Shown here: positions 36,794-54,499 of the stretch, piece after piece | Numbering within the stretch: the stretch's first letter is position 1 | Layout of the letters: each line of letters opens with the position of its first letter | Origin: Candidatus Atribacteria bacterium ADurb.Bin276 | GTDB lineage: Bacteria > Atribacterota > Atribacteria > Atribacterales > Atribacteraceae | Length of the DNA: 54,499 nt | Reading direction: 5' to 3' | NCBI GenBank assembly: GCA_002069605.1 | Contig: MWBQ01000066.1 | Span: 1 to 54,499 of the forward strand | Position numbers and translations under genes: made by a program | The notes under the pieces: model-generated | The model's input: only the letters and a program-made list of their open reading frames with translations | The model's database searches: none | What the model was told of the DNA's origin: nothing

Positions 36794-37231
36794 ATGCCAT
36801 TCAAAGAGAATTGGTGGGAAGAGTTTGATTCGATGCAGAAAGAAATGCAGCGCTTTATGGAGCATGTTTCTGGAAAGAAACCTCATTTCTTAGGACTTTC
36901 TGAAAAAGCTTGGGAACCTTTATGTGATGTTTTTGAAACCGATGATAATTTTATTGTTGTGGTAGATCTCGCCGGAGTATTGGTCAATGAAGTCGACTTG
37001 ACTATTCAATCACGAAAATTAATACTTAAGGGTGTGAGAAAGGAAGTTCCTTCACCCCCCAAAAGGGATTATCATCAAATGGAAATTCCCTTTGGTCCTT
37101 TTCAACGAGAAATTGATCTTCCTGAAGAGGTTGATGGAGAGACCATCAATGCCCGATATCGGGAAGGGTTCCTCATAGTTGAGTGCAAAAAGAAAAAAGT
37201 TATTACCGAACGGAGGATTCCTCTTGAGTAA
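36794..37231 (+). CDS. Hsp20/alpha-crystallin small heat-shock protein
   Basis: The 145-residue protein has an N-terminal arm (about 1-40) and an alpha-crystallin domain (about 43-135) with LCDVFETDDNFIVVVDLAGV, YREGFLIVECKK and a terminal RRIPLE (I-x-L/V-like) tail. Small heat-shock proteins hold unfolding proteins as an ATP-independent chaperone. ATG 36794 is preferred over GTG 36782 because TAGGTGGG sits 7 bases upstream. No HspR-type operator is visible here, unlike the second hsp20 at 50135. lon follows after 125 bases. Confidence 0.9.
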   Translation: MPFKENWWEEFDSMQKEMQRFMEHVSGKKPHFLGLSEKAWEPLCDVFETDDNFIVVVDLAGVLVNEVDLTIQSRKLILKGVRKEVPSPPKRDYHQMEIPFGPFQREIDLPEEVDGETINARYREGFLIVECKKKKVITERRIPLE

Positions 37232-50068: not shown

Positions 50069-50098
50069 CTTGACAATCAGTTTATCAAGTTTTATACT
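50069..50098 (+). promoter_or_regulatory. Consensus promoter overlapped by an HspR operator-like (HAIR) site
   Basis: TTGACA (50070-50075), 17 bases, TATACT (50093-50098) is a strong promoter. CTTGA at 50069-50073 and TCAAG at 50085-50089 are 11 bases apart, exactly the geometry of the HAIR element (CTTGAGT-N7-ACTCAAG), with 10 of 14 defined bases matching. The site covers the -35 box, fitting repression by the HspR encoded 1.7 kb downstream. Confidence 0.75.
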
Positions 50099-50134
50099 TT
50101 TAAATGTCAAAGTCAAACAACATCAAAGAAAGGT

Positions 50135-50581
50135 ATGGTGATAATTGTGTACCGTTTTGATTCTTTTCGTGATTTAACTCTTTTACAGGATAGGATAAAT
50201 CGACTATTTGATGACAGTATGGTTCGACATGAAAGACAACCTTCACCGAATGAAGCTTGGGTTCCAATGGTAGACATAACCGAAGATGAGAATGAAATTG
50301 TTCTTTGGGTAGATCTACCAGGAGTAAGTCAAAAAGAGGTTGATATCATAATTAACGGTGATCAACTTACCCTAAAAGGTGAAAAGAAGTTTGACCAAAC
50401 TAACCAGAGAAAATACTTACGAAGAGAAAGACTGGTGGGTCCTTTTTCAAGAACTTTTCAACTTAATTTACCGGTTGAAACCGAAGAAATATCGGCGGCT
50501 TATCGCAATGGGGTCTTAGAAATACATCTTCCCAAGCCGGCGGAATCAAAACCTCGGAAGGTTTCCATCCAGACTGAATAA
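50135..50581 (+). CDS. Hsp20/alpha-crystallin small heat-shock protein
   Basis: The 148-residue protein has the N-terminal FDSFRDLTLLQDRINRLFDD arm and an alpha-crystallin domain (about residues 42-135) with VPMVDITEDENEIVLWVDLPGV, YRNGVLEIHLPK and VSIQTE at the end. It is the first gene of the heat-shock cluster and has a consensus promoter with an HspR-like operator. The start may be ATG 50135 or GTG 50147; the former has AAAGG close upstream. A terminator follows it, so it can be made in excess over the distal genes. Confidence 0.9.
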   Translation: MVIIVYRFDSFRDLTLLQDRINRLFDDSMVRHERQPSPNEAWVPMVDITEDENEIVLWVDLPGVSQKEVDIIINGDQLTLKGEKKFDQTNQRKYLRRERLVGPFSRTFQLNLPVETEEISAAYRNGVLEIHLPKPAESKPRKVSIQTE

Positions 50582-50621: not shown

Positions 50622-50658
50622 AAAGAAGGGATGGTTAAAACCATCCCTTCTTTGTGTT
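50622..50658 (+). terminator. Intrinsic terminator after hsp20
   Basis: AAAGAAGGGATGG pairs with CCATCCCTTCTTT around a TTAAAA loop. The T-run is short (TTTGTGTT), so read-through into dnaJ is likely; this would give a polar expression ratio. Confidence 0.75.
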
Positions 50659-50704
50659 AAGTAGTTTAAAAAAGAGAATTTCCGGTAAAGGGGATGAAAT
50701 TTCA

Positions 50705-51751
50705 ATGGAATTCAAAGACTACTACCAAATATTAGGTTTAAATAGAAATGCCGATGAGAAAGAAATAAAGAAAACCTATCGTCGATTGGCTCGTAAGTAT
50801 CATCCCGACCTCAATCCCGGAAACAAAGAATCCGAAAAACGCTTTAAAGAAATTAACGAAGCCTATGAAGTCCTGGGTGATCCAGAAAAGCGAAAAAGAT
50901 ACGATGAACTGGGATCGGCTTGGAATAGTTATGGGCAAAAAGATACTGAGCAATTTTGGAAAGATTACTATAACAAGTATGGATCGGGTGGAACCTCATA
51001 CCAGCAAACCTATTCTACCAACTTTGAAGGAGGAGATTTTAGCGATTTTTTCCGAACATTTTTTGGTGATTTATTTGGAGGATCCAGTTCTCGAACCCAT
51101 TCGACTCGTTTCCGATCTTCGAGGAAAAATGAATGGATAAACGGATATCCTCAGAAAGGTGAAGCAGAGCCTTCTTCCCATCCCATAGAAATTAATTTTA
51201 TAGAGAGTGTTTTAGGAACGCGAAAGAATTTTCATCTTGAATTCGAAGAACCCTGTCCCCAATGTAGAGGCCAGAATCAAAACTGTACTACCTGTAATGG
51301 TCGAGGATTAGTCAGAAGAAAAAAAACCGTTGATGTAAGTATCCCCTCAGGAATTCAAGACGGAAGTAAATTAAGAGTACCTGGAGTGCTCAATGGGCGT
51401 GATTTATATTTAGTGGTTAAAATCCAACCCCATCCCTTTTTTAGGAGAGAAAAGCACGATATCCATCTTGACCTCCCATTAACTCTTTACGAAGCTCTTT
51501 TGGGAACTGAAATTGAAGTGCCAACCGTTAATGGAAAAGTGAAAATGAAAATCCCTCCTGAAACCCAAAATGGAATGACTTTGCGGCTTCGAGGGCTGGG
51601 GATTAAGGATAGAAAAACTGGATCAGTAGGCGATCAATTGGTCAAAATTCGAGTTGTTTTGCCTACCCGTCTTGATGAAAAAGAAAGGAAATTATTTCAA
51701 GATTTATCGTCAATAAGGAAGGAAAATCCCCGATCTCATCTGTTCACATAA
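50705..51751 (+). CDS. DnaJ/CbpA-type J-domain co-chaperone with a half zinc finger
   Basis: The 348-residue protein has a J-domain (about residues 5-70) with the HPD tripeptide in [10 protein letters not shown], a Gly/Phe-rich linker, and C-terminal substrate-binding beta domains (about 155-340). Instead of the four CxxCxGxG repeats of DnaJ there are only two CxxC motifs (CPQC and CTTC, about residues 185-200), so at most one zinc is expected. It stimulates DnaK and holds unfolded proteins. ATG 50705 is supported by the conserved family start and GTAAAGGGGA upstream. dnaK itself is not in the window. Confidence 0.88.
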
Positions 51752-51787: not shown

Positions 51788-52138
51788 ATGGTAAAAAATA
51801 ACCAAAAGGATGAATATTTCATAATCAGTGTGGTTGCTCAAATGACCAACCTGCATCCTCAAACTCTCCGGTATTATGAAAAAATGGGAATACTTAGACC
51901 TAATCGAAGTCAAGGAAATATCCGGTTGTATTCCTATCAAGATGTTGAAAGAGTGAGACAGATCAAAGCTTTAACTCAAGATATGGGAGTCAATTTAGCT
52001 GGAGTTGAAATAATCCTGAGATTAACTGAACAAATAGAAGCTATTCAAGGTCAATGGGAAAAAGAAAGAGAGAAAATGAGAAATCGAATCAAGGATTTAG
52101 AGGGAAGAATTTCGAAGGGTGGTGAGATTTTGTTATGA
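51788..52138 (+). CDS. hspR: MerR-family heat-shock repressor HspR
   Basis: The 116-residue protein has the HspR version of the MerR helix-turn-helix: [45 protein letters not shown], followed by a coiled-coil dimer helix. HspR binds HAIR elements and is released on heat shock with DnaK as co-repressor in actinobacteria. Here it sits inside the chaperone operon, so autoregulation through the site at 50069-50089 is expected. AGAGGAGG is 11-12 bases from the ATG. Its stop overlaps the clpC start (ATGA). Confidence 0.93.
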
Positions 52139-54499
52139 ACTTTGAACAGTTTACCGAAAAAGCCAAAGAAGTCATTCATTTAGCTCAAAACATCTTATTA
52201 GAATATCATCACAATCAACTGGATGTAGAGCACATTCTTTTAGCTTTAGTTAAGCAGCCCGAGGGAATAACTGGCCAAATATTAGAACGTTGTCAAGTTT
52301 CTCCGGAAACCATTCAAAATGAATTGGAGACCTCTTTAGAAAAAAGACCCTCGGTTTATTTCCAAGCAAGCACTGAAGCTCAGATTTATATAACACCGCG
52401 AGCAAAATCGGTTTTAGACGGAGCGGTTGAAGAGGCCAAAAGGTTAAAAGATTCCTATGTTGGCGTGGAACATCTTTTAATTGCTGTGGCTAAAGAGGAA
52501 AGTGGTTTAAGCAATAAGATTTTAAAAAATTATAAGGTAGATGTTGAAAAAATATACCGAGCCCTACAAGAAATTCGAGGAAAAAGGAAAGTTGATGATC
52601 CTTATGCGGAGGGACGTTATATGGCCTTAGAAAAATATGGAAGAGATTTAACCCAATATGCTCAAGATGGGAAGCTAGACCCGGTAATCGGACGAGATAA
52701 CGAAGTGAATAGAGTAATTCAAATATTAAGCCGACGGACCAAAAATAATCCAGTTCTTATTGGAGACCCTGGAGTAGGAAAAACAGCTATCGTAGAAGGT
52801 TTGGCACAAAAAATTGTCCAGGGGAATGTGCCAGAAAGTTTAAAAGGAAAACGTGTTATTATTCTTGATATGGGTTCTCTCTTGGCAGGTGCAAAGTTCC
52901 GAGGAGAATTTGAGGAACGTTTGAAAGCTGTTTTAGAGGAAGTTCAAAAGTCGGAAGGGAAAATAATTCTATTTATTGATGAACTGCACACCGTTGTGGG
53001 TGCTGGAGCAGCCGAAGGAGCCATTGATGCTGCGAACATCCTGAAACCTTTGTTAGCTCGAGGAGAGCTGCAAACAATAGGAGCTACTACTCTGGATGAG
53101 TATCGAAAATATATCGAGAAAGATGCAGCTTTGGAGAGGCGTTTTCAACCGGTTTTTGTAGGCGAGCCCAGTATTGAAGAAACCAAAAAAATCCTTCAAG
53201 GACTGAGGGATAAATATGAAGCCTACCATAAAGTGAAAATAGCAGATGATGCCCTTGATGCTGCGGCCGAATTATCGGCAAAATTTATTAACGATCGCTT
53301 CCTTCCTGATAAAGCAATTGATTTAATAGATGAAGCTGCTAGTAAAAAGCGTATTGATATCCAAAGTGTTCCACCAGAAATAAAGGATATGGAGCTTGAG
53401 CTGCAGAAAATGGCTCAAGAAGGGATGGCGGCAGTCCAGGCTCAAGAATACGAAAAAGCTGCTGCTTTGAGAGATCAAGCCGAAGCGCTTCGTCTTCGCT
53501 ATCAAGAAACTCGGGATAAGTGGCTTCAAGAAAAACAAATGAGCGAGGTCGTTTCAGCTTCCGATATCGCTGAGGTGGTTTCTTCCTGGACTGGCATACC
53601 AACTACTCAACTGATGGAAAAGGAAAGAGAAAGGTTGCTTCGTATGGAAGAAGAGCTTCATCGGCGAGTAATTGGACAGGATGAAGCTCTTCATGCGGTT
53701 GCTGAAGCGATTCGACGATCCCGGGCGGGCATAACCGAAGGGAAAAGACCAATCGGCTCTTTTCTCTTTCTTGGACCTACCGGTGTTGGGAAAACTGAAT
53801 TGGCAAAAGCTCTGGCGGAATTTATGTTCGGAAGCGATGATGCTTTGCTACGGATTGATATGTCAGAATATATGGAAAAACATACCGTATCCCGTTTAAT
53901 TGGAGCACCTCCTGGTTATGTAGGATATGAAGAGGGTGGCCAACTGACCGAAATCGTGAGAAGACGCCCTTATCAAGTTATTCTTCTCGATGAAATAGAG
54001 AAAGCTCATCCCGATGTGTTTAATATCTTATTACAAATTTTGGATGACGGACGATTAACTGATGGACAAGGGAGAACGGTTGATTTTCGTAATACAGTTA
54101 TTATTATGACTTCAAATTTAGGCAGCCAGGCATTCCGAAGTCTTTCCATTACTGAGTTAGCAGGATTTGAGAAATCGAAACAAGCAGTTCTTAAGGAAGT
54201 TGAAAGACATTTCAAGCCAGAATTTATTAATCGTATTGATGAAATCATTGTGTTCAAACCCTTAACAGAAGAACAAATTCATCAAATTGTTGACATAATG
54301 ATGTCCTACCTTGAAAAACGGCTTCAGGAACAAGGGTTGAGTATTGTTTTGGATGACCAAGTGAAGGACTTTTTAGCAAAAAATGGATATGATCCTGATT
54401 ATGGTGCTCGTCCGTTACGACGATTAATCCAGAGAAAAATAGAAAGTCCATTAGCCAGTGAATTAATCCGTTGTACTTTCCAACCCGGACAAACCATAC
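52135..54499 (+). CDS. clpC: ClpC-type AAA+ unfoldase, 3' end outside the window
   Basis: 788 codons are visible, lacking perhaps a few tens of residues. The N-terminal Clp repeats (about 1-145), D1 with GDPGVGKTA and D2 with GPTGVGKTE are intact. The D1-D2 linker is short and holds a UVR-like motif ([17 protein letters not shown]), as in ClpC; the long coiled middle domain of ClpB is missing. In D2, LAGFEKSK lies where ClpC has its LGF-type ClpP-binding loop, but shortened. So it probably unfolds substrates for ClpP. It starts inside the hspR stop codon, making it part of the HspR operon. Confidence 0.9.

Follow-up and report, generated by a model that had tools for sequence, protein, structure and literature searches.

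A HAIR-like dyad and a CtsR-type box share the promoter of an hsp20-dnaJ-hspR-clpC operon in Atribacterota and suggest dual repression by HspR and CtsR

Heat-shock gene cluster

The stretch of DNA analyzed here (the window, 54,499 nt) is contig MWBQ01000066.1 of Candidatus Atribacteria bacterium ADurb.Bin276 (assembly GCA_002069605.1) and belongs to a draft genome of 2.5 Mb that is 98% complete. It carries hsp20, dnaJ, hspR and, incomplete at the contig end, a clpC-type gene, in that order, with an RNA hairpin between the first two genes:

50135 to 50581, forward strand: hsp20 (PF00011), with an ATG start at 50135
50622 to 50653, forward strand: strong RNA hairpin between hsp20 and dnaJ (z = -6.8)
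50702 to 51751, forward strand: dnaJ (PF00226 and PF01556)
51788 to 52138, forward strand: hspR, MerR-family heat-shock repressor gene (NF047375 above cut-off; alignment)
52135 to 54499, forward strand: clpC-type ATPase gene, truncated by the contig end

An alternative hsp20 start, GTG at 50147, fits the relatives better than the ATG at 50135. The hspR product scores 114 bits against the NCBIfam HspR equivalog (NF047375; cut-off, 105), and its gene starts 1.7 kb downstream of the promoter dyad in the same cluster, as originally predicted. Against genome contigs, the HspR query retrieved two close relatives (“Candidatus Atribacteria” metagenome bins), the remainder being distant MerR-type proteins, and a sequence search for a solved HspR structure returned none, with GlnR-type regulators the nearest. 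The hspR and clpC genes overlap by 4 bases, and the clpC-type product shares 55% identity with ClpC from the separate ctsR operon.

DnaJ proteins usually have four zinc-finger motifs. The DnaJ of this cluster has just two, CPQCRGQN and CTTCNGRG (window positions 51255 to 51320), and no Pfam zinc-finger match. The hsp20-dnaJ hairpin is present in 12 of 12 genomes examined (ADurb.Bin276 and 11 relatives; loci besides the window, L035-L038, L041, L046, L049, L050, L123, L125, and L136), its sequence is wholly different between genera, and most copies have no clear T-run. The hairpin possibly serves transcript processing or partial termination and may tune the hsp20:dnaJ ratio through RNA processing or stability. 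The fold of the 5' leader is not notable (z = +0.8), and an Rfam search of the promoter region gave zero matches.

Core promoter and HAIR-like dyad

Upstream of hsp20, the promoter region contains the following elements:

50069 to 50089, no strand assigned: HAIR-like dyad, CTTGACAA-TCAGT-TTATCAAG, a probable HspR operator present at seven promoters in three lineages
50070 to 50075, forward strand: -35 box TTGACA, aligned across 21 promoters
50093 to 50098, forward strand: -10 box TATACT, with a 17-base spacer to TTGACA
50111 to 50127, forward strand: CtsR-type box AGTCAAA-CAA-CATCAAA, two mismatches to RGTCAAANANRGTCAAA

The near-consensus pair TTGACA-17-TATACT is the top promoter-like match of the region (11 of 12 positions), and transcription is predicted to start near 50105. 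The sequence at 50069 to 50089 is CTTGACAATCAGTTTATCAAG, in which CTTGA and TCAAG are separated by 11 bases within a total of 21, and the dyad spans the -35 box and 14 spacer bases; both the half-site spacing and the overlap with the -35 box had been correctly described in the original prediction. The dyad was also considered as an RNA element and rejected, because transcription is predicted to start downstream of it.

The HAIR operator of Streptomyces HspR is CTTGAGT-N7-ACTCAAG (PMC7464140, PMC6102357). The dyad has the 21-base span and the outer cores CTTGA/TCAAG and sits on the promoter of an hspR-bearing operon, and it matches 10 of the 14 arm positions of CTTGAGT/ACTCAAG, deviating at positions 6 and 7, in the variant form CTTGAYAA-N5-TTRTCAAG. 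The site is named HAIR-like, not HAIR, because the full arms are missing despite the HAIR span and outer cores. The original assignment as a HAIR-type operator is partly supported, by the cores, the span and conservation in the genus, in another genus and in another family, but not by arm positions 6 and 7.

Within the window, CTTGA-N11-TCAAG is expected 0.10 times by chance and has its sole copy at 50069; the other hsp20, at 36794, lacks it, in line with the earlier statement. Genome-wide scans, which used patterns and profiles, found four copies in 2.5 Mb, the other three being two intragenic and one intergenic and away from heat-shock genes. Shuffles extrapolate to roughly four to five copies per genome, and the motif is therefore at chance level and not enriched genome-wide. 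The left half of the dyad (CTTGA) also owes part of its sequence to the -35 hexamer. Because the bare motif occurs at chance frequency and its left half is partly the -35 box, the case for the dyad must rest on position and conservation.

Conservation of the dyad and its relation to hspR

The cluster LysM/M23 - HD - hsp20 - dnaJ - hspR - clpC was recovered in 16 relatives, complete or cut by a contig end. The -35 box served to align 21 promoters, namely, those of the 16 relatives, of ADurb.Bin276 itself, of G002 (whose contig stops ahead of hspR) and of hspR-less clusters; G014 was left uncounted, being identical there to G012. The spacer is 17 bases in all 21. Seven promoters have the dyad. 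Five come from a single genus (ADurb.Bin276, G001, G002, G003 and G004), one from a second genus (G008) and one, with one outer base altered, from a different family (G011). All 8 columns of the right arm, TTATCAAG, are invariant across the genus of ADurb.Bin276, G008 and G011, compared with 0 of the 26 remaining spacer and upstream columns (Fisher test, 5.5e-8, with columns treated as independent), and the 14 promoters without the dyad match 0 to 3 of the 8 positions in the same register. Among 25 genomes, the extended dyad CTTGANAA-N5-TTNTCAAG with zero mismatches is found only at this promoter. Position on the promoter and conservation together argue that the dyad is not due to chance.

In G007 and G009, which belong to the family of ADurb.Bin276, and in G012 and G014, from a different family, clpC comes immediately after dnaJ, and these clusters lack the dyad. 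In G006, hspR is also missing between dnaJ and clpC, and the promoter falls outside the contig. Loss of hspR from the otherwise conserved cluster is seen in at least two lineages (G006, G007, G009, G012, and G014; L121-L125), and the G012 and G014 clusters gave no hsp20 match either. As judged from these comparisons, loss of the dyad alongside hspR is the behavior expected of an HspR operator.

Family f2 differs, with 11 genomes that have hspR in the operon yet lack the dyad, and the recognition helix of f2 HspR is similar in alignment. A genome-wide search for CTTGA-N11-TCAAG in ten f2 genomes gave zero matches in G019 and G020; matches in the others varied in sequence, and none was at the hsp20 cluster promoter. 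No mismatch-free copy of the dyad was found elsewhere within the f2 cluster. The f2 upstream sequence TTTGAC-N5-TTGACA was tried as a HAIR site and rejected, since its spacing is wrong and fits a reverse CtsR box, as on the grpE-dnaK promoter of ADurb.Bin276. Because f2 retains hspR without the dyad, hspR in the cluster does not alone imply a dyad operator, and because this hspR-bearing sister family also lacks the dyad, binding of HspR is something that we infer. Counted by independent lineages, hspR and the dyad are both present in three, both absent in two and discordant in one. The resulting link, which rests on few events, is suggestive rather than proof.

CtsR-type box at the predicted start site

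The original prediction overlooked a second promoter element, the CtsR-type box. CtsR has the consensus A/GGTCAAA NAN A/GGTCAAA and binds over the start site or the -35/-10 region (PMC12634643). The sequence just past the -10 box (50105 to 50127) is TGTCAAAGTCAAACAACATCAAA; the CtsR-type box lies 13 bases after the -10 box, covers the predicted transcription start and is overlapped by an extra heptad, TGTCAAA, at 50105 to 50111. Relative to the heptad direct repeat RGTCAAA-NAN-RGTCAAA, this box has two mismatches, and the homologous promoters of G021 (AGTCAAAAAAGGTCAAA) and G009 (GGTCAAATAAAGTCAAA) are perfect. A CtsR-type box is found 10 to 17 bases after the -10 box in 21 of 21 promoters, whether hspR is present or not, with 2 to 3 mismatches in f1 dyad promoters versus 0 to 2 in most promoters without the dyad.

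Scored with a matrix from the boxes of other operons, 50111 to 50127 ranks first of all window positions. The pattern with two or fewer mismatches is not enriched genome-wide (39 matches versus 68 in the control); six of the 39 sit on four heat-shock promoters, those of ctsR, grpE-dnaK (two), an orphan hsp20 (two) and hsp20-dnaJ-hspR-clpC. The element at 50111 appears to be a degenerate CtsR box, a reading backed by its position and its homologues.

CtsR and HrcA in the order

Curated models place both the HspR and the CtsR proteins in their families. The ctsR gene of ADurb.Bin276 (PF05848 and PF17727) lies on contig C30 (G000:C30) in the operon ctsR - mcsA-like - mcsB-like - clpC - radA. Within the order, ctsR is found in 24 of 25 genomes; none was detected in the other phylum members tested. 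A box with three or fewer mismatches lies upstream of ctsR in all 22 genomes examined, and the perfect CtsR boxes of the order (13) are every one upstream of hsp20 genes. The HrcA test, positive in 7 of 14 control genomes, was negative for all 25 genomes of this order.

The grpE-dnaK promoter (contig C71 of ADurb.Bin276; L172, near 1501 to 1562) has a reverse CtsR-type box around the -35 box and a forward box after the -10 box. In this genome CtsR may control dnaK in place of HrcA. No HspR-type dyad was found on grpE-dnaK, groES or other hsp20 genes, and no HspR site was present in 16 groES promoters. The groES promoters of the order (L215-L235; L229 in ADurb.Bin276) carry up to three inverted repeats like TTTTGNCATTNTGNCAAAA, about 60 to 250 bases upstream, in genomes without HrcA.

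The active-site cysteine of the arginine kinase McsB presumably lies in TSCPTNLGTG. In the McsB-like protein encoded in the ctsR operon, the putative active-site cysteine position is occupied by His, Ser, Thr or Asp (L113:4118-5146 on contig C30 of ADurb.Bin276, L114-L116, L119, L120, L126, and L127), and in this order the protein may be an inactive kinase.

Proposed dual repression and alternative explanations

The hsp20-dnaJ-hspR-clpC operon probably has one promoter under two repressors, HspR over the -35 box and spacer and CtsR over the start site, with CtsR the older layer. A single sigma-70-type promoter would drive the operon; HspR made from the same transcript would bind the 21-bp HAIR-like dyad over the -35 box and spacer and block RNA polymerase, and this negative autoregulation would be relieved by heat or unfolded-protein stress. 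CtsR, encoded elsewhere, would add a second block, released upon heating, by binding the heptad direct repeat over the start site. The CtsR layer would be the more widespread in the order and the HspR dyad limited to a subset of lineages, missing where hspR was lost.

What the genomes show directly is a set of conserved sequence elements in fixed positions, together with genes for both regulators. That HspR and CtsR bind and repress, that heat is the signal, and where transcription begins are points that we infer from sequence. Joint control is supported by the position of the dyad, its invariant right arm, the fixed CtsR-type box, the presence of ctsR, the other boxed promoters and the absence of HrcA; against it weigh the f2 genomes with hspR and no dyad, the HAIR fit of 10 of 14, the small number of independent events linking hspR to the dyad, and the two mismatches in the CtsR box, a pattern without genome-wide enrichment. 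The layout would resemble that of HspR+HrcA promoters, in which one repressor sits upstream and the other over the start site (PMC7464140). The broader scenario, towards which we lean somewhat less firmly, is that HspR and CtsR jointly repress one promoter in an order without HrcA, where CtsR seemingly serves dnaK, and that the HspR arm was lost or rewired more than once and CtsR kept. A negative feedback loop is plausible because HspR would be translated from a message under its own repression. The self-limiting heat-shock loop proposed earlier fits the dyad on the promoter of the hspR operon and its absence where hspR was lost, but would be one of two layers and confined to this operon.

It is unlikely that HspR alone acts through the dyad in a simple loop, with the GTCAAA repeats of this genus being what is left of a CtsR site that has decayed and no longer functions. 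The 2 to 3 mismatches of the f1 dyad promoters, compared with 0 to 2 in most others, would agree with decay, but a CtsR-type box holds its place in every dyad promoter and has the best CtsR-type score of the window, and the genome retains ctsR together with boxed target promoters. The CtsR-type box is more widely conserved than the dyad, which makes HspR an unlikely sole repressor. The converse, in which CtsR alone controls the operon and also reads the dyad while HspR acts elsewhere, seems rather less probable still. The dyad halves do resemble single heptads (TGTCAAG, TATCAAG), TCAA being a core common to CtsR heptads; the grpE-dnaK promoter of ADurb.Bin276 has a TGTCAAG heptad, and no dyad is available to f2 HspR. 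CtsR boxes are, however, direct repeats with a 3-base gap (PMC12634643), unlike the 21-base dyad, and the dyad is missing in genomes that have CtsR but lack hspR.

We give little credence to some other regulator that reads the dyad and whose distribution coincides with that of hspR. Binding by HspR is a prediction, and f2 shows that hspR and dyad are separable, but HAIR spacing and outer cores on an hspR operon, and joint loss with hspR, favor HspR. Least credible is a dyad created by chance from a -35 box followed by TCAAG. The -35 hexamer supplies most of CTTGA and the genome-wide motif frequency is that of chance, whereas TTATCAAG is invariant in three lineages and the surrounding spacer is randomized, which already disfavored this explanation.

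Comparison with known systems

HspR, CtsR and HrcA are the standard heat-shock repressors, and HspR operators and CtsR operators are known separately. If dual repression by HspR and CtsR is correct, this conserved promoter would fill the last repressor pair, the order would provide a natural series (dyad and hspR; hspR without the dyad; neither) on the gain or removal of a second repressor in a heat-shock circuit, and the result would be a first heat-shock control map for an almost uncultured phylum (Atribacterota). HspR+HrcA and HrcA+CtsR are each known to share promoters (PMC7464140); the searched literature (HspR with CtsR; Atribacteria with HspR or CtsR), whose coverage excludes most subscription papers, contained no HspR+CtsR promoter.

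Like the Streptomyces HAIR, the dyad is a 21-base inverted repeat with CTTGA/TCAAG outer cores on the promoter of an HspR-encoding operon, but arm positions 6 and 7 differ (CTTGACA/TATCAAG). There is one site per genome here, whereas Streptomyces has three on one promoter, and here grpE-dnaK and groES have no site. In Campylobacter jejuni and Helicobacter pylori, HspR and HrcA act on one chaperone promoter (PMC7464140). The proposed arrangement would likewise place two heat-shock repressors on a promoter, the second over the start site, but the partner would be CtsR rather than HrcA, and the HspR site lies in the core promoter rather than upstream. As in Bacillus subtilis and other Firmicutes (PMC12634643), the CtsR-type box reads as a heptad direct repeat, though with two mismatches here, that has a 3-base gap and overlaps the start site (predicted here), and the ctsR operon contains mcsA-like, mcsB-like and clpC genes and is preceded by a box. 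The Atribacterota differ from these systems in that grpE-dnaK is boxed too and a degenerate box shares its promoter with a HAIR-like site.
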